In this document: piece by piece, positions 4,369 to 51,627 of the stretch
Layout: every line of letters begins with the position of its first letter
Position numbering within the stretch: position 1 is the first letter of the stretch
Origin: Petrotoga sp. 9PWA.NaAc.5.4
GTDB taxonomy: Bacteria > Thermotogota > Thermotogae > Petrotogales > Petrotogaceae
Assembly (NCBI RefSeq): GCF_002895485.1
Contig: NZ_AZRK01000042.1
Coordinates: 62,001 to 126,000 of the forward strand
Length of the DNA stretch: 64,000 nucleotides
Reading direction: 5' to 3'
The notes under the pieces: model-generated
Told to the model about the DNA's origin: nothing
Databases searched by the model: none
The model's input: only the letters and a program-made list of their open reading frames with translations
Program-made: the position numbers and the translations under genes

Positions 4369-4448
4369 ATTTTCATTTAATTTTAATGAAAATCTTTTAT
4401 AATAATATAAGAAACTTAATATATAATTAAGTGGTTGTTTATTATTTA

Positions 4449-4580
4449 GGAATTTTAGAAATGAATATTTTCTAAAAATAAGCATTTGAATTTATAACGG
4501 GTCCAGGGCGGAGCCCTCCCCTGCATAGCTCCAAGTACCGGAAATGGTAAAGAATTTAAGAATTAGTAAGGACATTTACC
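4449..4580 (+). repeat. Interspersed TIR repeat, 3'-truncated copy 2a
   Basis: The 5' end TAGGAATTTTAGAAAT, the GGGCGGAGCCC hairpin and the GAATTAGTAAGGA segment are present. The GGAGGT/TATAAT/3'-TIR part is missing, replaced directly by the next copy. It is a head-to-tail partner of the complete copy that follows. With that copy it fills the 464-bp gap before 4832. Confidence 0.8.
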
Positions 4581-4587
4581 TTTTAAT

Positions 4588-4797
4588 AGGGACTTTAGAA
4601 ATGATAATCTTCAGAAAATAAGATTTTGAATTTAAAGTGGGTCCAGGGCGGAGCCCTCTCCCCATTCCTTCGGTACAAGTACCGAAAAACTAAAGAATTT
4701 AAGAATTAGTAAGGGTTAGAAGTGGGGAGGTATTTTGTAAAAAAATCAACGCTAAAACATATACTTAATAAGAATTTTAAAATTTTTAAAGTGAGTA
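4588..4797 (+). repeat. Interspersed TIR repeat, complete copy 2b (upstream of secreted protein gene)
   Basis: Begins TAGGGACTTTAGAAAT and ends in TTTTTAAAGTGAGTA. It holds GGGCGGAGCCC, the stem TTCGGTACAAGTACCGAA and TGGGGAGGTATTTTGTAA. Its TCTCCCCATT tract (near 4648) is complementary to AGTGGGGAGG (near 4723), about 10 pairs including two G-T, suggesting a paired RNA base. Oriented with the gene at 4832. Confidence 0.85.
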
Positions 4798-4831
4798 TGT
4801 TTACCTTTTAAGAGAAGTAGGTGTATTAAAA

Positions 4832-5245
4832 ATGAAAAAGATTATAACTATTTTTTTGATAGTAAGTTTTTTAACATTAGTATATGGTGATTGGAAATTT
4901 TCTTCGACCTTTATTTTTTCATCAACAAAGAATGATATAAAATATGAAATATTTATCATCGATTCTAAAAAAGATGATAAAGGCCCACCACCGTGGGCAC
5001 CAGCTCATGGATATAGGGTAAAATATCAATACTATTATTATCCGAATTCACAAGTTTATTATGATAGCGATCGAGGACTCTATTTTTATTATTCTAACGA
5101 AAACTGGGAATTTTCAGTTTCTCTTCCATCTTTTATAAATTTAGATAAAGATATATCCGTTATTCTTGAAATGGATGCTGATAAACCTTACATTTATCAC
5201 TCAGAAATTGTTAAAAGATATCCTCCAAAAGCAAAGAATAAATAA
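4832..5245 (+). CDS. Small secreted protein of unknown function
   Basis: 137 residues, not recognised. The first 20 or so (MKKIITIFLIVSFLTLVYG) form a classical Sec signal peptide, so the protein is probably exported to the toga/periplasmic space or outside. The mature part is rich in Tyr, Ser and Lys. A GPPPWAPAHGYRVKYQYYYY stretch in the middle, with many aromatic residues, could be a surface or carbohydrate contact. No cysteines or lipobox were seen. A short GAAGTAGGTG precedes the start. Two tandem interspersed repeats lie immediately upstream and a Rho-independent terminator follows, so it looks like a single-gene unit. Confidence 0.6.
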   Translation: MKKIITIFLIVSFLTLVYGDWKFSSTFIFSSTKNDIKYEIFIIDSKKDDKGPPPWAPAHGYRVKYQYYYYPNSQVYYDSDRGLYFYYSNENWEFSVSLPSFINLDKDISVILEMDADKPYIYHSEIVKRYPPKAKNK

Positions 5246-5294
5246 ATTTTATAATCAAAGATAAAAATAGTTTTTATTTTTAATTTTTTGATGT

Positions 5295-5330
5295 AAAACG
5301 CGATATAGTAGTAACTATATTGCGTTTTTT
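5295..5330 (+). terminator. Rho-independent terminator after the secreted-protein gene
   Basis: Stem AAAACGCGATATAG pairs with CTATATTGCGTTTT (one G-T pair) around a TAGTAA loop, followed by a T run. It lies 50 bp after the stop at 5245. Confidence 0.8.
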
Positions 5331-5515
5331 ATGTTTATTACTTTTAATAATTTCCTCTTTTTATAAAAAATTAAAAAATTTCTATTTTATTTATGTGTTT
5401 GTGTAATTATAACAAAAATTAAAATAAAAGATATTAAACAGTAAATTGCAGTATATATGCTCTTGATAAAATTAAAAATATACTATTAAAATTTACTAAA
5501 TTCAGGAGGTAAGAG

Positions 5516-6121
5516 ATGTCAACTGTACTCTATATCAAGGCAAATCCCAAAGATGATAAGGATTCTCGTACTTTTAGAATTTCAAATCACTTTATAAATG
5601 TTTATCAGAAAACTCATCCTAACGATCAAGTTATTACCCATGATCTTTATAAGGAAAACATTCATTTTTTAACAAAAGAAGATATCCAAACAATATTTTC
5701 GCCAAAAACCGAAGAAAGTCGAAATCATCCTATTTTGAAATATACATACGAGTTTGCTGAAGCAGATAAGTATATCTTTGCTTTTCCAATGTGGAATTTA
5801 AATATGCCAGCTATTCTCAAAGCTTATTTTGATTATATTACAGTTTCAGGAATTACATTCAAGTATACTGAACATGGTGCTGTTGGCCTTTTAAATAATA
5901 AAAAAGCGCTTTGTATTACAACAACTGGTGGTGAATATCTTACTCCTCCAATGTCAGACTTTGAGATGGGAATGAGATATATAAGGACCATACTAAAATT
6001 TATGGGAGTTGATGATATCAAAGCAGTAGCTGCACAAAGATTAGACATTATTGGAGAAGATGTGGAAAAAATAATTTCAGATGCTTTAAAAGAAGCTGAA
6101 GAAGTAGCTAAGAAATTTTAA
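5516..6121 (+). CDS. azoR: FMN-dependent NADH:azoreductase / flavodoxin-fold quinone reductase
   Basis: 201 residues, typical for AzoR. The N-terminal beta-strand MSTVLYIKANPKDDKDSRTFRIS is the phosphate-binding start of the flavodoxin-like NAD(P)H:quinone reductase fold. FAFPMWNLNMPAILKAYFDYI (about residues 85-105) is the conserved FMN-contact segment PMWNFxxPxxLKxYxD, and the flavin-contacting TTTGGEY loop lies near residue 140. It probably carries out two-electron reduction of quinones or azo compounds. The start has AGGAGG 6 bases upstream. Monocistronic: terminators lie before (5295-5330) and after (6164-6190). The true substrate is unknown. Confidence 0.85.
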   Translation: MSTVLYIKANPKDDKDSRTFRISNHFINVYQKTHPNDQVITHDLYKENIHFLTKEDIQTIFSPKTEESRNHPILKYTYEFAEADKYIFAFPMWNLNMPAILKAYFDYITVSGITFKYTEHGAVGLLNNKKALCITTTGGEYLTPPMSDFEMGMRYIRTILKFMGVDDIKAVAAQRLDIIGEDVEKIISDALKEAEEVAKKF

Positions 6122-6163
6122 TAAAATTATTATTAAATTAATAGCAATTCAATTTAGTAAATA

Positions 6164-6190
6164 AAAAAGTCCACTTAAAGTGGACTTTTT
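6164..6190 (+). terminator. Rho-independent terminator after azoR
   Basis: AAAAAGTCCACT, loop TAA, then AGTGGACTTTTT: a compact perfect stem with a T run, 43 bp after the azoR stop. Confidence 0.88.
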
Positions 6191-6347
6191 TATTTTGAAT
6201 TCACTTGATATGTATAATAAAGAAGAAAGAAAAAAAAGATGGATCGTAAAAATTTGAAAGAACATAAAAATATTTTATAAAATTCTAATAATAATTTGAA
6301 TATTATCAAATTTATAAAAAAATACTTAAATTATTTTATTATTTTCC

Positions 6348-6376
6348 TTGACTTTTTAATAATAACATGATATAAT
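6348..6376 (+). promoter_or_regulatory. Near-consensus housekeeping promoter for the 37-residue gene
   Basis: TTGACT (6348-6353), a 17-base spacer, then a perfect TATAAT (6371-6376). Transcription would begin near 6383, giving a leader of about 45 nt before the ATG at 6428. One of the two best promoter matches in the window. Confidence 0.82.
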
Positions 6377-6427
6377 TTATTAAAAATATTAAGTTATAAA
6401 TCAATAATTTTAAAGGAGGGGATAAAA

Positions 6428-6541
6428 ATGTTCAAACCTACTTATAAAAAACTTAGAAAAAATGAATCTTATTATACTGCCTATGACAATCTCGATAAAG
6501 AACTATACTACTTTTATTTAGAAAATATTAAAAGATTATGA
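6428..6541 (+). CDS. Small protein of 37 residues, unknown function
   Basis: ATG at 6428, stop TGA at 6539-6541. The reading frame is short but its context is complete: a near-consensus promoter at 6348-6376, a long ribosome site AAAGGAGGGG ending 6 bases before the ATG, and a 16-bp terminator stem starting 15 bp after the stop. The product starts MFKPTYKKLRKNESYYTAYD and ends LYYFYLENIKRL. It is basic in the first 12 residues and Tyr-rich (7 of 37), with no signal peptide or membrane segment. I do not recognise it. Its design suggests an abundantly made cytoplasmic small protein, perhaps nucleic-acid- or partner-binding, which is inference only. Confidence 0.72.
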   Translation: MFKPTYKKLRKNESYYTAYDNLDKELYYFYLENIKRL

Positions 6542-6555
6542 GAAATCTTGAATTA

Positions 6556-6593
6556 AAACTTAAGTGGGAGAACCATCTCTCCCACTTAAGTTT
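6556..6593. terminator. Bidirectional Rho-independent terminator
   Basis: Perfect 16-bp stem AAACTTAAGTGGGAGA / TCTCCCACTTAAGTTT around the loop ACCATC. It lies between the convergent small gene (+) and folD (-), 12 bp from the folD stop, so it can serve both. Confidence 0.88.
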
Positions 6594-6605
6594 ATCTTAA
6601 TCATA

Positions 6606-7415
6606 TTAATTTAGAGCAGCTTTAAAAACATTTCGCATTAAAATTACTGATGTAACATTACCCACACCGCCAGGTACGGGTGTGACGTTGCATATTTCTG
6701 ACACTTCCTTAGAAACATCTCCCACTATCTTACCATTTATAACGTTTATTCCTACATCTATTATAATTGTACCCTCTTTTACGAAAGTTTGATCAACAAA
6801 GTTAGCTTTTCCTATAGCAGCAACTAAGATATCAGCTTTTTTGGTAATTTCTTTTAAATCTTTAGTTCTTGTATGGGTTACCGTAACAGTAGCGTCTCTT
6901 CCGTGTTTCTGCAAAAGAATCGCAACAGGTTTTCCAACTGTTGTACTCCTTCCCATTATTACAATATTTTTCCCTTCAGTATCTTCAATATCTTCTATTA
7001 TTTTTACAACTGCTTCAGCTGTACACGGGACAAATATTTCTGATTCGTAAAACATAGAACCAATATTGTACAAGCTCACTCCTTCTACATCTTTTAAAGG
7101 ATTTATATTTTTTGCAACATCCAATTCTGTATAACCTTTTCTTAAAGGTCTGCCTACAAAGATTCCATCTACTGAACTATCTTCATTATACTTTTTTAAA
7201 TCATCTATTAAATTCTTACTCTCAATAATTTCCAAATTTATGCCGTATTTTTTTGCACTTTTCTTTTGAGAATTTAAATAAGATATTGTAGATTCATCTG
7301 GTTCCACCACTAAACTAATTAACTTTGGTTCATAATTTATTTGTGATTTAATTTGTTCTATTTCAGATTTTATTTTGTCTATAGTATTTTTTACATCTAT
7401 TATCACAGGAATCAA
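6606..7415 (-). CDS. folD: FolD: methylenetetrahydrofolate dehydrogenase/methenyl-THF cyclohydrolase (divergent short form)
   Basis: 269 residues, shorter than the usual 280-300. NADP-linked oxidation of 5,10-methylene-THF and hydrolysis of the methenyl form. The Rossmann part is standard: IMGRSTTVGKPVAILL near residue 155 and a C-terminal PVPGGVGNVTSVI. The active site is unusual. The Lys normally four residues after the Tyr of SYxxxK is Gln50 (SYLNSQKK, Tyr46). The usual QLPLP motif reads GRPLR (residues 88-92). KDVDG is KDVEG. It lies downstream of fhs on the same strand, completing the formate-THF-methylene-THF route. A compact 89-bp repeat variant lies just upstream. Confidence 0.9.
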   Translation of the reverse strand: MIPVIIDVKNTIDKIKSEIEQIKSQINYEPKLISLVVEPDESTISYLNSQKKSAKKYGINLEIIESKNLIDDLKKYNEDSSVDGIFVGRPLRKGYTELDVAKNINPLKDVEGVSLYNIGSMFYESEIFVPCTAEAVVKIIEDIEDTEGKNIVIMGRSTTVGKPVAILLQKHGRDATVTVTHTRTKDLKEITKKADILVAAIGKANFVDQTFVKEGTIIIDVGINVINGKIVGDVSKEVSEICNVTPVPGGVGNVTSVILMRNVFKAALN

Positions 7416-7437
7416 CCCCTTTTCAATATAATATACT

Positions 7438-7526
7438 GTCTTTAGAAATTGTAAAATATATATATTATATATGTTTTAGCTTGGTCGTCTCTACACGTAA
7501 CCAGCAGAGGGCTTCGCCTCTAAAGT
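7438..7526 (-). repeat. Interspersed TIR repeat, compact 89-bp variant (upstream of folD)
   Basis: Read on the minus strand, both TIR cores survive (ACTTTAGA ... AATTTCTAAAGAC) but most of the interior is lost. The left TIR runs straight into the hairpin GAGGCGAAGCCCTC, then CTAAAACATATATAATATA leads to the right TIR. Same orientation as folD. Confidence 0.65.
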
Positions 7527-7552
7527 ATTTAATTATCAAATTTAAAAGTATA

Positions 7553-9217
7553 TCAAGATAAACCTGTAATAACTCCATCTTTGTCGATGTCCATATTAAC
7601 AGCGTTGGGAACTTTTGAAAGACCTGGCATTCTCAGTATATCTCCTGCTAAAGCTACTATGAAACCGGCTCCTGCTGATAATTCAAAATCCCGTATTGTA
7701 AATGTATAATCTTTTGGAAATCCTAATTTATTAGGATCGTCTGATATCGAATATTGTGTTTTAGCCATAATAATCGGTAATTTATCATAACCATATTTTT
7801 TTAAAAATTTAATTGATTGAAGCGCATCGCTTGTATATTCTACTTTAGACGCTCTATATATATTTTTAGCTAATTTTTCAATCTTTAATTCTAATGAGTC
7901 CTCAAAATTATATATTGTTCGTAAATCTGACCTTTTCTCACAAGCAGAAGCTACTTTTTCCGCTAAATCTAAGGCTCCTTCAGATCCTTTAGCAAATCCA
8001 TCATTAATACTTGCTTCTACATTAAAACTTTTTACAAATTCTTCAACTGTATTCAATTCTTCTTCTGTATCTGTATCGAATTTATTAATGGATACAACTA
8101 ACGGTACATTGAATTTTTTTAAATTTTCAATATGCACTTGTAAATTAGAAAGTCCTTTTCTTAAACTATCTAAATCAGGCTCAGATAATTCTTTTTTATT
8201 TTTACCTCCATGATATTTCAAAGCTCTAACTGTTGCAACTAAAACCGTAGCAGAAGGTTTTAATCCAAATGTAGGAGAGACAAAATCATAAAATTTTTCT
8301 GCTCCCAAATCAGAACCAAAACCACTTTCAGTAACTACATAATCAGCAAGTTTTAAAGAGAGTTTTGTAGCCACTATAGCGTTAGTTCCATGAGCTATAT
8401 TCGCAAAAGGACCTCCATGTACAAAAGCGGCTGTATTTTCTATTGTTTGTACAAGGTTTGGATTTATAGCATCTTTTAATAATATTGTTAATGCTCCGGC
8501 AATTCCAAGATCTTTTACTGTTATTGGACTTCCTTCTTTATTTCTTGCTACAACTATTTTAGAAAGTTTTTCTTTAAGATCTTCTAAACTTGTTGACAAA
8601 CACAAAATTGCCATAATTTCAGACGCAGCAGTTATCACAAATCCATCCTGACGAAGATACCCATTTTCTTTTCCCCCTAATCCTACAACTATTTCCCTTA
8701 ATGCTCTGTCGTTCATATCCATTGCTCTTGGCCAAGAAACTCTTGTGGAATCAATATTTAACTTATCATATTTTATATAAGCATCCAATACAGCAGAAAT
8801 AAGATTATGTGCTGAAGTAACAGCATGGATGTCTCCCGTAAAATGAAGATTTATATCTTCCATAGGTAAAACCTGTGAGTAACCGCCACCAGCTGCTCCA
8901 CCTTTTATCCCCATAACAGGACCTAAAGAAGGTTCTCTCAAAGTTACTATAGAGTTTTTTTTAATTTTGTTTAAAGCCATCGACAATGCTATACTTGTAG
9001 TTGTTTTACCTTCTCCAGCAGGTGTAGGAGTTATAGCAGTTACAAGTATCAACTTCCCATCCTTTTTGAAATCAAGCTTTCTTAAATAATTGTGTGAAAC
9101 TTTGGCAATGTATTTTCCGTACAAGTTGTAGTCTTCCTCTTTTATATCCAGTTCATTTGCAATATTCGTAATCTTTTTCAATTGAGCAGCACGAGCTATT
9201 TCAATATCAGTAAGCAT
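7553..9217 (-). CDS. fhs: Formate--tetrahydrofolate ligase
   Basis: 554 residues, full length for the family. ATP-dependent formylation of THF. The ATP loop TPTPAGEGKTTTSIAL is at about residues 63-78, followed by LREPSLGPVMGIKGGAAGGG and DINLHFTGDIHA, all diagnostic, with AAFVHGGPFANIAHG near residue 270. The ATG has AAAGGAGG 6-7 bases upstream. It precedes folD (138-bp gap), and both would feed formyl-THF to the purine pathway (PurN, PurH) encoded 20-25 kb away. A complete and a truncated interspersed repeat lie upstream. Confidence 0.97.
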   Translation of the reverse strand: MLTDIEIARAAQLKKITNIANELDIKEEDYNLYGKYIAKVSHNYLRKLDFKKDGKLILVTAITPTPAGEGKTTTSIALSMALNKIKKNSIVTLREPSLGPVMGIKGGAAGGGYSQVLPMEDINLHFTGDIHAVTSAHNLISAVLDAYIKYDKLNIDSTRVSWPRAMDMNDRALREIVVGLGGKENGYLRQDGFVITAASEIMAILCLSTSLEDLKEKLSKIVVARNKEGSPITVKDLGIAGALTILLKDAINPNLVQTIENTAAFVHGGPFANIAHGTNAIVATKLSLKLADYVVTESGFGSDLGAEKFYDFVSPTFGLKPSATVLVATVRALKYHGGKNKKELSEPDLDSLRKGLSNLQVHIENLKKFNVPLVVSINKFDTDTEEELNTVEEFVKSFNVEASINDGFAKGSEGALDLAEKVASACEKRSDLRTIYNFEDSLELKIEKLAKNIYRASKVEYTSDALQSIKFLKKYGYDKLPIIMAKTQYSISDDPNKLGFPKDYTFTIRDFELSAGAGFIVALAGDILRMPGLSKVPNAVNMDIDKDGVITGLS

Positions 9218-9243
9218 CTAAAATCCTCCTTTGTTAGTTTTTT

Positions 9244-9454
9244 TACTTACTTTAGAAATTCTAAAATCCTTATTATATATATGCTTTAGCATTGATTTTT
9301 TTACAAAATAACTTCCCGCTTATAGTCCTTACTAATTCTTAATTTCTTCACCTTTTTCAGCCCTTGCAGCCAAGAAAGGGGGAGAGGGCTGTACCCTGGA
9401 CCCATTTTAAATTCAAAAGATTATTTGAAAATCTTTATTTCTAAAGTACCTATA
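9244..9454 (-). repeat. Interspersed TIR repeat, complete copy (upstream of fhs)
   Basis: On the minus strand it runs from TAGGTACTTTAGAAAT to AATTTCTAAAGTAAGTA. Inside are a variant hairpin around GGGTACAGCCC, a pyrimidine tract, GAATTAGTAAGGAC, GGGAAGTTATTTTGTAAAA and CATATATATAATAAGG. It ends about 27 bp before the fhs start. Confidence 0.85.
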
Positions 9455-9461
9455 TAATGGA

Positions 9462-9564
9462 TTTTTCTTACTTTTTCACTAAGTGTAGCAAAGAAAGGAC
9501 TGTACCCTGGACTCATTTAAATTCAAAAGCTCCTTTTCTGAAAATTATCATTTCTAAAGTTCTT
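9462..9564 (-). repeat. Interspersed TIR repeat, truncated copy in tandem with the fhs copy
   Basis: Minus strand: TAAGAACTTTAGAAATG, the AAGCTTTTGAATTTAAA-like segment, GGGTACAG and CTACACTTAGTG-like stem parts; it lacks the GGAGG/TATAAT half. Together with the complete copy it fills the 405-bp gap between patB and fhs. Confidence 0.7.
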
Positions 9565-9621
9565 ATACTTTTTTGTGTAGTTACCTTAATTAAATCAGAG
9601 TTTTTAAATTAACTACTTAAA

Positions 9622-10788: not shown

Positions 10789-10821
10789 AGAGTTATGTCT
10801 CCTCCTATAATATTTTTGATT

Positions 10822-10946
10822 TACTCACTTTAGAAATTATGAAACTCATATTTTATAAATGTTTTGACGTTTAGTTTTTTAAAAAATATCTCCATTATTC
10901 TAATTTTAACCAATTGGCTATTTTCTTTAATTTTCATTTCTAAGCT
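10822..10946 (-). repeat. Interspersed TIR repeat, internally shortened copy (upstream of patB)
   Basis: Minus strand: 3' end ATTTCTAAAGTGAGTAA next to the gene, GGAGATATTTTTTAAAA inside, left end AGCTTAGAAATG; the GGGCGGAGCCC hairpin is missing. The remaining 10947-11159 holds nothing I can assign. Confidence 0.65.
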
Positions 10947-16513: not shown

Positions 16514-16602
16514 AAGACTTCAGAAATGAGATTTTTTGAGAATAAGTTAAAATAGAATCCTGCCATTTATAGAATTTGAGGTTCATAATTTTGAAAGTAG
16601 TA
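16514..16602 (+). repeat. Interspersed TIR repeat, degenerate partial copy
   Basis: GACTTCAGAAATGAGATTTTTTGAGAATAAG matches the 5' end and ATAATTTTGAAAGTAG-like bases the 3' end; the centre is replaced. It lies in tandem before the complete copy upstream of the tricorn gene. Confidence 0.45.
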
Positions 16603-16611
16603 TCTCAATAA

Positions 16612-16825
16612 ATAGATACTTTAGAAACGATAATTTTCAGAAAATAAGCTTTTGAATTTAAAATGGGTCCAGGGCACAGCCCTTTCTCCCTTCTTTGGCT
16701 ATAAGTACCGAAAAAGGTAAAGAAATTAAGAATTAGTAAGGACTAGAAGCAAGGAGGTATTTTGTGAAAAAATCAATGTTAAAACATCTATAATAATAAG
16801 GACTTTGAAATTTCTAAAGTGGATA
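16612..16825 (+). repeat. Interspersed TIR repeat, complete copy (upstream of tricorn protease)
   Basis: TAGATACTTTAGAAAC ... AATTTCTAAAGTGGATA. Internal parts: CAGGGCACAGCCC, GGCTATAAGTACCG stem, GAATTAGTAAGGAC, AAGGAGGTATTTTGTGAAAA and CTATAATAATAAGG. In this copy only, GTG 16764 could open a 9-codon frame (VKKSMLKHL) after GGAGGT; other copies have TAA there, so this is not conserved. Confidence 0.85.
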
Positions 16826-16852
16826 TCAATAAACTGAAGGAGGTTAAAGTAA

Positions 16853-29082: not shown

Positions 29083-29109
29083 TACTTAAAAACCTCCCGT
29101 AAAATTTTT

Positions 29110-29326
29110 TTATACTCACTTTAGAAATTTCAAAATCCTTATTATTATAGATGTTTTAACATTGATTTTTCTAAAAAATACCTCCTGCTTCTAGTCCTTA
29201 CTAATTCCTAATTTATTTACCTTTTTCGGTACTTGTAGCCAAGAAAGGAGGAGGAGGCTCCGCCCTGGACCAATTTTAAATTCAAAATGTTGTTTTTAGA
29301 AAAGTCTTATTTCTAAAGTACCTAAA
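29110..29326 (-). repeat. Interspersed TIR repeat, complete copy (upstream of purD)
   Basis: Minus strand TAGGTACTTTAGAAAT ... AATTTCTAAAGTGAGTA, one of the best preserved copies. Contains CAGGGCGGAGCCTCC, GGCTACAAGTACCG, GAATTAGTAAGGAC, GCAGGAGGTATTTTTTAG and CTATAATAATAAGG. It accounts for most of the 342-bp gap between purD and the GGDEF gene. Confidence 0.88.
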
Positions 29327-29423
29327 TTTTTTATTAAATACTTTAAAAATTTTAAAGTCTTAGATAATATTAAAGCCATTTTAAACTTCCATCAGCTTTT
29401 AATATTTCTTAAAATCAAATAGT

Positions 29424-34509: not shown

Positions 34510-34532
34510 AACTTCCTCCTATTTATATTAAT

Positions 34533-34743
34533 TTTACTTATTTTAGAAATTCCAAAATTCTTATTATATATATGTTTTAGCGTTGATTTTTTTACAAAAT
34601 ACCTACCTACTTCTAATCCTTACTAATTCCTAATTTCTTTACCTTTTTCGTTACTTGTAGCCAAAGAGAAGAGGGCTGTGTCCTGGACCTGTTTTAAATT
34701 CAAAAGCTTATTTTTTGAAAATTATTATTCTAAAGTACCTAAT
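34533..34743 (-). repeat. Interspersed TIR repeat, complete copy, first of three (upstream of purM)
   Basis: Minus strand TAGGTACTTTAGAATAA ... AATTTCTAAAATAAGTA. Includes CAGGACACAGCCC, GGCTACAAGTAACG, GAATTAGTAAGGA, GTAGGTAGGTATTTTGTAAAA and CATATATATAATAAG. The copy closest to purM and the best preserved of the three. Confidence 0.85.
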
Positions 34744-34751
34744 ATTAATTT

Positions 34752-34950
34752 ACTAACTTTAGCTTTAGAAATTCTAAAAACCATTTTTATGTATGTTTTA
34801 TCGTCAAATTTTTTATAAAATGCCTCTATAACCTTAATTTTTACTAATTATGACTTCTTTTAACTTTTTGGTACCTCTACCGAAGAGTAGGAAGAGGACT
34901 CCGCCCTGAACTCGTTTAAAATTCAAAATTTCATTTCTAAGGTCTCTAAT
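34752..34950 (-). repeat. Interspersed TIR repeat, second tandem copy (purF-purM gap)
   Basis: Minus strand TAGAGACCTTAGAAATG ... AATTTCTAAAGCTAAAGT. Retains CAGGGCGGAGTCC and TCGGTAGAGGTACC stem parts and GAGGCATTTTATAAAA; more diverged than the first copy. Confidence 0.75.
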
Positions 34951-34959
34951 ATTAATTTA

Positions 34960-35160
34960 TTTAGTTTAGAAATTCTAACCTTCCGAGTGTATAAATGTTC
35001 TGAATTTTAGTTTTTTTAAAATATCTTTATAGTTTTAATACTCACTGATTATATATTCCTTTAAATTTTTCTCACTTGTAGGCGGAGAAGGGAGAGGACT
35101 TAACTCTGAACCTGTTATAAATTAAAATGCTTATTTTTAAAAGCCCTTATTTCTGATTCT
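34960..35160 (-). repeat. Interspersed TIR repeat, third tandem copy, diverged (purF-purM gap)
   Basis: Minus strand: ATCAGAAATAAGGGC ... AGAATTTCTAAACTAAATA, with ACAGGTTCAGAGTTAAGTCC, GCCTACAAGTGAG and AAAGATATTTTAAAAAAACT. Recognisable end to end but the hairpins are eroded. Confidence 0.65.
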
Positions 35161-41107: not shown

Positions 41108-41137
41108 TCTGTATTTTTGAATAAAATCTCTAATCCC

Positions 41138-41214
41138 CTCTCACTGTAGTCAAACAGTTTACGGCTGTTTGGTAGAAACTGCTGAACCTTATTATCAGCA
41201 TTATACAGAAAGAG
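41138..41214 (-). ncRNA. Purine (guanine-class) riboswitch controlling the pur operon
   Basis: Minus strand. P1 is CTCTTTCTGTA (41214-41204) with TACAGTGAGAG (41148-41138). The conserved core reads TATAATGCTGATAATAAGGT, then TTCAGCAGTTTCTACC, AAACAGCCGTAAACTGTTT and GACTAC. P2 is TGCTGA/TTCAGCA and P3 AAACAG/CTGTTT; the loops show the kissing-loop consensus. The specificity base (first pyrimidine in GACTAC) is C, which pairs with guanine or hypoxanthine; adenine switches have T. It lies 112 bases before purE, with a terminator between. An off switch: excess guanine should stop transcription of the purine genes. Confidence 0.95.
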
Positions 41215-41252
41215 GCTATGTAAACTTCACATATATTAACTTGATTAAACCT

Positions 41253-43940: not shown

Positions 43941-44954
43941 CTAAACTGTAAATTTTAATTTCGAAGAATTATCATATAAATCAGGCAAATTATGAGTCTG
44001 TATCCAACCATTTTTAAACCCCAATTCTTGCATATAGCTAATTACTTCTTCATATTCAGACTTGTATAAATACCTTGAAAGCTTTTTATAATTTTTTGCT
44101 TTAAATACGGGTACATATTGGTCCATTAAACTAATATAAATTTCTTCTGAAATTTCATACTTTAAAAATTTTAAGGCTTCTTTTGTTTGATTTAAAAAGT
44201 TTGGAAGAACTAATAACCTTATAATTATTCCCTTTTTTAGTTCATTAGTTTTTTCGTCTAAAACAAAACTTTTCCCTAACTGCCTATACATTTCTTTTAT
44301 AGCTAACTGTGTTTTAGTCCAATAATCTTTAACTCCAGAATACCGCTTACCTACTATATCACTTGTATATCTTATATCCGCCAAATAAATATCAACTACT
44401 CCTTCCAACAATTTTAAAGTTTCTATAGTTTCATAAGAAGAAGTATTCCATACTATAGGTAAACTAAATCCTTTCTCTATCGCATAAATTAGTGCTTCAA
44501 ATATATAAGGTAAATAAGGTGTCGCTGTAACTAAATCAAGATTTGTAGCTTTCTTTTCAAACTGTAACTTCAGAAATATTTCCCCTAATTCCAAAGTAGA
44601 TATTTCTTTTCCTCTACCCAACTGACTGAATTGAAAATTTTGACAGTATACACATCTCATCGTACAGTTACTAAAGAAAACTCCTCCAGCTCCATACTTC
44701 CCGTTTAAAACAGGTTCTTCTCCGGGATATAATACAAACTCAGAGACTTTTACTTTATTGCCAACCCTACAACTTCCAAAATGTAAATTTCTATTGATTT
44801 TACAATCTCGTGGACAAATATCACAGTTGTTTAATTTTTTCATGAGTAAATCTCTTCTTCTCTGAAGTTCACCAGATTCGTATAGAGTTAAATAAGATGG
44901 CAAAAAATCAAAACTAATAAAGGGTCTCCTCCTTTTCAATTTCAATATACTCAC
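43941..44954 (-). CDS. Radical SAM protein of the PflX/COG1313 type (PFL-activase-like)
   Basis: 337 residues from GTG 44954. Features: CDICPRDCKINRNLHFGSCR (extra N-terminal Cys cluster), YPGEEPVLNGKYGAGGVFFS and the radical SAM motif C-TMR-C-VY-C in NCTMRCVYCQNFQFSQLGRG. Annotated in relatives as a putative pyruvate formate-lyase activating enzyme; real substrate unknown. The start is doubtful. GTG 44954 lies inside the repeat, and a perfect AGGAGG sits inside the reading frame (44933-44928). Nine bases after it comes ATT (44918) just before SFDFLPSYLTLYESGEL, where related proteins usually begin. TTG 44903 is another option. Confidence 0.85.
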   Translation of the reverse strand: MSILKLKRRRPFISFDFLPSYLTLYESGELQRRRDLLMKKLNNCDICPRDCKINRNLHFGSCRVGNKVKVSEFVLYPGEEPVLNGKYGAGGVFFSNCTMRCVYCQNFQFSQLGRGKEISTLELGEIFLKLQFEKKATNLDLVTATPYLPYIFEALIYAIEKGFSLPIVWNTSSYETIETLKLLEGVVDIYLADIRYTSDIVGKRYSGVKDYWTKTQLAIKEMYRQLGKSFVLDEKTNELKKGIIIRLLVLPNFLNQTKEALKFLKYEISEEIYISLMDQYVPVFKAKNYKKLSRYLYKSEYEEVISYMQELGFKNGWIQTHNLPDLYDNSSKLKFTV

Positions 44955-45161
44955 TTTATAAATTATAAAACTTATATTTTATAAATGTTTCAACGTTTAA
45001 TTTTTCCAAAAGTGCCTTATTAACTCTAATTCTCATAGAATATGAATTTCTTTAACTTTTTCGCTACGTGTAGCTAAGGAGAGAGGGGAGGGCTCCGCCC
45101 TGAACCCATTATAAATTCAAAAGCTTATTTTTAAAAAATTCTCATTTCTAAAGTCTCTATT
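44944..45161 (-). repeat. Interspersed TIR repeat, complete copy (upstream of the PflX-like gene)
   Basis: Minus strand TAGAGACTTTAGAAATG ... AATTTATAAAGTGAGTA. GGGCGGAGCCC hairpin, AGCTACACGTAGCG stem and a decayed GGCACTTTTGGAAAA where others have GGAGGTATTTTGTAAAA. Fills most of the 332-bp gap; the remaining 45162-45285 contains only a short AT palindrome. Confidence 0.82.
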
Positions 45162-51468: not shown

Positions 51469-51493
51469 AATATTAACTCCTGCATAAATATCA

Positions 51494-51617
51494 TGATATT
51501 CACTTTAGAAATTCTAAAATTCATCTTTTATCAATGTTTTAGCGTTTAACTTTCTATAAAATACCTCCACAATTCTAATTTTGACCAATTCTTTATTTCT
51601 TTAACTTTTTCGCTGTT
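51494..51617 (-). repeat. Interspersed TIR repeat, 3' half (upstream of yaaR)
   Basis: Minus strand: AGCGAAAAAGTTAAAGAAAT, TGGTCAAAATTAGAATTGTGGAGGTATTTTATAG and AATTTCTAAAGTGAATA. It stops at the second stem and the GGGCGGAGCCC part is missing. Same orientation as yaaR. Confidence 0.72.
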
Positions 51618-51627
51618 TAAAGCCATT

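Follow-up and report, generated by a model that had tools for sequence, protein, structure and literature searches.

A compact gene unit and its surroundings

Between positions 6348 and 6593 of the window, the 64,000-nucleotide stretch of Petrotoga DNA analysed here, lies a small gene of 37 codons. The promoter, ribosome site, reading frame and 16-bp hairpin described for it in an earlier note were all located:

6348..6376, + strand: promoter TTGACT-17-TATAAT with a TG extended -10 (sequence and promoter scan); -35 box TTGACT at 6348-6353 and -10 box TATAAT at 6371-6376, separated by a 17-nt spacer with TG at its end
6383..6427, + strand: 5′ leader of about 45 nt, A/T-rich, from a predicted start site
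6412..6421, + strand: ribosome binding site AAAGGAGGGG (sequence and Shine–Dalgarno (SD) score)
6428..6541, + strand: 37-codon gene MFKPTYKKLRKNESYYTAYDNLDKELYYFYLENIKRL, stop included (homologues, purifying selection)
6556..6593, no strand assigned: 16-bp hairpin with arms 6556-6571 and 6578-6593 (fold z = -5.4)
6606-7415, - strand: folD, the convergent neighbour, outside the unit

Immediately preceded by the SD sequence, the ATG at 6428 opens a frame of 37 codons that closes with TGA at 6541. The promoter agrees with the consensus at 11 of 12 positions, carries the extended -10 element and outscores every other in the 3.5 kb scanned (5000-8500). A promoter of this score is by itself not rare, as matches of at least 11/12 occur four times in the window and 2-12 times in its shuffles; the rare feature is the combination of promoter and SD, the small gene being the only window ORF of 25-70 codons with an SD score of at least 6 and a promoter score of at least 11. 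The signals also surpass those of most long genes, as had been proposed: the promoter score is reached by none of the 48 long window ORFs, and the SD score lies above that of 43 and is reached by five. Judged by these signals, the small gene is apparently strongly expressed.

Below the stop codon is the hairpin, which was matched in stability by none of 200 shuffles. Of its proposed role as a terminator, the 16-bp stem stands and a dedicated + strand function is less likely: the U-tail on that strand is poor (TTTATCTTAA), and a simple terminator scanner did not list the structure. Because it sits between the convergent small gene and folD, it is probably a two-way terminator common to both.

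Other elements were noted in the window. Located 3′ of the azoreductase gene is a near-perfect palindromic hairpin (6159-6195; AAAAAAGTCCACTTAAAGTGGACTTTTTT), a textbook two-way terminator, and a purine riboswitch lies on the minus strand at 41127-41228 (E = 2.5e-13). About ten places carry copies, in either orientation, of a dispersed repeat of ~210 bp whose members are ~73-88% identical:

1449-1688, 4439-4801, 9222-9567, 10797-10934 and 16594-16833: dispersed repeat sites
29105-29356, 34514-35154, 44924-45161 and 51481-51625: further sites

Coding evidence, distribution and predicted fold

Searching 61 genomes by tblastn recovered a closest copy with 89% identity (genome G008), a group at ~53-59% identity (the second copy of G008, and G016, G002, G014, G012, G018, G009 and G003) and a lowest copy at 42% (G004). 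A profile built from 11 and then 20 members extends these results, placing the frame in 20 of the 21 genomes of the window's bacterial family; the single miss is a fragmented genome with 6% contamination (G011). In one further genome (G020) the frame is disrupted within the basic tail, possibly by an assembly error. A scan of named genomes returned one locus, L078 (JAKOZG010000027.1, Thermotogota bacterium isolate USSF_maxbin.001).

Among the 82 other Thermotogota genomes (of 103 in the phylum), the profile found no credible copy; the best E-value, 0.015, belongs to a frame that contains a stop. Weak matches elsewhere in the phylum (E 0.015-0.036) are partial and mostly fall in long frames or across stops, and were discarded. 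Two other weak matches, to a 452-residue frame and a ~780-residue frame, have poor E-values, cover the helix only in part and are ascribed to chance; judged by eye, the former is probably glycine dehydrogenase subunit 1 and the latter probably a chemotaxis receptor. The phages, plasmids and viral contigs searched contained no family match. Within the reach of these searches, the protein family is confined to Petrotoga, Marinitoga and their kin, the bacterial family of the window.

Purifying selection acts on the frame: dN/dS lies at 0.08-0.34 in each of the 11 pairs that yielded an estimate of dS, and in six pooled pairs the odds favour synonymous over nonsynonymous change five-fold (p = 8e-10). 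The claim of selection rests on the family, because the pair formed by the window and G008 is by itself borderline (p = 0.07). A search of relatives combined with dN/dS was one check named in the earlier note, which took loss of the frame with retention of the RNA as the mark of a small RNA, and the reverse was seen: compared with other genera, the window's leader is 48-58% identical and its coding sequence 64-68%, the leader keeping its length between genera and not its sequence. No stable fold was found in the 5′ leader, and Rfam 15 gave no match above the gathering score. In 10 of the 11 copies examined for it, the -10 box ends 51 nt upstream of the ATG, and in the eleventh 50 nt upstream, a regularity that coexists with the non-conserved leader sequence. 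A small regulatory RNA with a chance open frame, to which the short transcript unit with its strong promoter and hairpin and the steady 50-51 nt spacing would be suited, is thus very improbable and was discarded, given the excess per site of synonymous change, the divergent and unstably folded leader and the Rfam result. On this comparative evidence the unit is a protein gene, and its earlier description as a real gene for an unknown small protein is borne out.

The family comprises about 30 proteins of 28-41 residues. The N-terminal tail is variable and K/R-rich throughout (net charge +1 to +9), extending to the family the basic N terminus predicted for the window's product. Following the tail is the conserved core, SYYxx[YF]D...ENxRR, which begins with S-Y-Y-x-[AG]-[YF]-[DE] and continues with a hydrophobic residue at each third or fourth position; E32 and R35 are conserved, the C terminus is hydrophobic, and the residues past R35 and the position of the stop vary. 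The core is mostly net negative, with a mean hydrophobicity near 0.1. As the earlier note had supposed, the protein matches no known family, with no above-threshold profile match in Pfam, NCBIfam, PHROGs or PADLOC and no sequence match in the PDB. In an AlphaFold model computed from two sequences (the window protein and that of L078), residues 1-10 are flexible and residues 11-36 form a helix, with a block-mean pLDDT of 80-84 over residues 21-37; because pTM is 0.31, the model is usable for secondary structure only. These sequence comparisons give good support to a new family of small proteins, restricted in range and apparently uncatalogued.

Genomic settings of the family

Members of the family occur in three settings:

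(a) stand-alone unit with its own promoter and 3′ hairpin, in seven genera: the window, G003, G009, G004 (two sites), G005 (three sites), G013, G001 and G007
(b) first gene before a major facilitator superfamily (MFS) exporter: G019, G015, G010, G006, G017, G020 and G008
(c) first gene before an MsbA/SmdAB-type ABC exporter: G015, G013 and G010

In several stand-alone units, two or three strongly diverged genes lie in tandem; one such unit, in G004 (L047), is a row of three family genes. In G007 (L109), a third small ORF is flanked by two family members. In the window, G003 and G009, the small gene is followed by a hairpin and then a convergent neighbour, with no same-strand gene directly 3′; other stand-alone copies adjoin unrelated genes. 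The MFS exporters of setting (b) are related to TIGR00900/MefA. Past a spacer of ~190-270 bp, an MFS exporter also lies 3′ of the small gene in G016, G002 and G018, and an ABC exporter lies past a spacer in G012 and G014. We refer to genomes here as Petrotoga-like or Marinitoga-like on the assumption that G012 is Petrotoga mobilis, G003 Defluviitoga tunisiensis and G013 Marinitoga piezophila. In the Marinitoga-like genomes, the small gene ends in a stop that overlaps, or lies right against, the ribosome site of the exporter gene (TAAGGAAGTG).

Genomes of the family carry 6-18 ABC_membrane and 1-5 MFS_3 genes each, ~0.7% of genes. An exporter is the next gene at roughly 4-5 independent sites among a total of about 16, against an expectation of ~0.7%; by a hand estimate, the chance of such adjacency is of the order of 1e-5. 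The independent cases are few (about 4-5) because neighbourhoods within a genus share descent.

The site in the window lacks this neighbour: the 89% identical copy of G008 lies directly 5′ of an MFS exporter that is absent here. The two sites share their preceding genes (by eye, presumably a phosphohexomutase-like gene and a XerC-like recombinase), and the window has ~2 kb of other sequence between, comprising a 137-residue ORF and the azoreductase gene. Elsewhere in the window's genome is a 40% identical MFS paralogue, beside which no family member was found. As the window copy has no adjoining exporter, the link to export rests on its relatives.

Two further observations concern exporter loci. 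In Petrotoga-like genomes (L040-L043 and L045), the exporter at one and the same site is of the MFS type in some and of the ABC type in others, and short dispersed repeats rich in G (GGGTGGGCAGCGGGGCGAAGGGG) make up the spacer between small gene and exporter. Exporter exchange driven by recombination is suggested by this arrangement. In Marinitoga-like ABC-exporter loci (L100:5020-5250; also L074 and L075), an unrelated leader ORF of ~30 codons stands upstream of the small gene; the stretch with its ribosome site and start codon (GAGGTTATCACATG) base-pairs with GTGATAACC within the ORF, and two tandem terminator-like hairpins follow (GGGCTATGG..CCATAGCCC; fold z = -7.4). This element looks like a ribosome-mediated attenuator of the exporter operon.

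A possible role in drug export

The evidence for the protein family is good; its mechanism we infer. Our best guess, offered tentatively, is a trans-acting, basic-tailed helical microprotein tied to drug or xenobiotic export. The product would be a genuine small cytosolic protein, in which the variable basic tail (residues 1-12) would be flexible and contact RNA, DNA or acidic surfaces, and residues 14-37 would form an amphipathic helix docking on a partner; a basic tail joined to an amphipathic helix would fit docking on a larger partner. Acting in trans, the protein would probably be linked to stress and serve multidrug or xenobiotic export as a partner or regulator. Transcription and translation of both genes would be coupled where an exporter gene follows; in the window, where the exporter is absent, the small gene would retain its function alone. 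That single, paired or tripled helical microproteins throughout the lineage regulate, or form subunits of, multidrug exporters of two unrelated superfamilies in trans is a more specific and rather doubtful proposal.

It is possible, if somewhat doubtful, that the protein is instead a housekeeping microprotein, for example an accessory of the ribosome, RNA polymerase or membrane, and that the exporters are passengers inserting 3′ of a strong promoter. Near-universal occurrence in the family, strong and constant expression signals and many stand-alone copies all agree with such a role, as does the alternation of MFS and ABC exporters at the same site in Petrotoga-like genomes. Such a role is harder to reconcile with the tightly coupled exporters that repeatedly come next after the small gene, in two genera and at 4-5 sites that appear independent, and the diverged tandem copies suggest adaptable rather than fixed partners.

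Small ORFs 5′ of exporters are known to act in cis. MdtU (YdgV) of Escherichia coli is encoded by a 34-codon ORF upstream of mdtJI, which ends 106 nt before mdtJ and for which cis action with Rho and spermidine has been proposed (PMC7815308). The BmrB leader peptide precedes, and is cotranscribed with, the Bacillus subtilis bmrBCD multidrug ABC operon, where alternative stem-loops serve attenuation (PMC4191407). By description, the present genes resemble mdtU as short translated ORFs of similar length 5′ of an exporter operon, and bmrB as small ORFs immediately 5′ of a multidrug exporter; unlike MdtU, the family has stand-alone and tandem copies, and unlike bmrB, the exporter-linked copies tested here show no attenuation stem-loops. 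A cis leader peptide, the obvious initial model, whose translation or stalling would control the downstream exporter and whose stand-alone copies would be leftovers, draws on these precedents and on the first-gene position and tight exporter coupling in several genera. A same-strand gene directly 3′ is present in the exporter-linked copies, but absent in the window, G003 and G009. This reading is unlikely, because stand-alone copies lacking a 3′ target are conserved under purifying selection (dN/dS 0.08 for the G009/G003 pair), no conserved or stable RNA structure was found over the small ORF and exporter start (Marinitoga-like consensus -0.64 kcal/mol with no compensated pair; single-sequence folds near those of shuffles), and the variation past R35 and in the position of the stop does not resemble a C-terminal stall.

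Less likely again is a secreted or antimicrobial peptide (a leaderless bacteriocin or the precursor of a modified peptide) with an adjoining exporter or immunity pump. Tandem paralogues, basic character and neighbouring exporters would accord with it, and the Marinitoga-like MFS protein scores 62 bits against the peptide-exporter model NF041056, far under the cut-off of 575. The reading is weakened because the conservation pattern is reversed, the conserved part being C-terminal and the variable tail N-terminal with no leader/core pattern, and because no maturation enzyme was recognised in the loci inspected; the mostly negative core of low hydrophobicity also argues against it. Near-universal occurrence across a bacterial family is, moreover, unusual for bacteriocins.

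Lineage-specific small helical proteins of under 50 residues, belonging to no domain family and preceded by strong expression signals, form a more general class. The present proteins share these properties, and differ in having tandem diverged paralogues and in being encoded first in exporter operons, which represent two superfamilies.

Signal quality by itself can point a reader to true small genes. The gene found here belongs to a family of small proteins that is apparently absent from the catalogues, occurs in nearly all genomes of a single bacterial family and has a link to drug export that can be tested. If it acts on exporters in trans, the protein would be a soluble partner of exporters rather than a membrane one, which would set it apart from the cis leader ORFs of pumps, and as an exporter accessory it would be of a kind not described so far.
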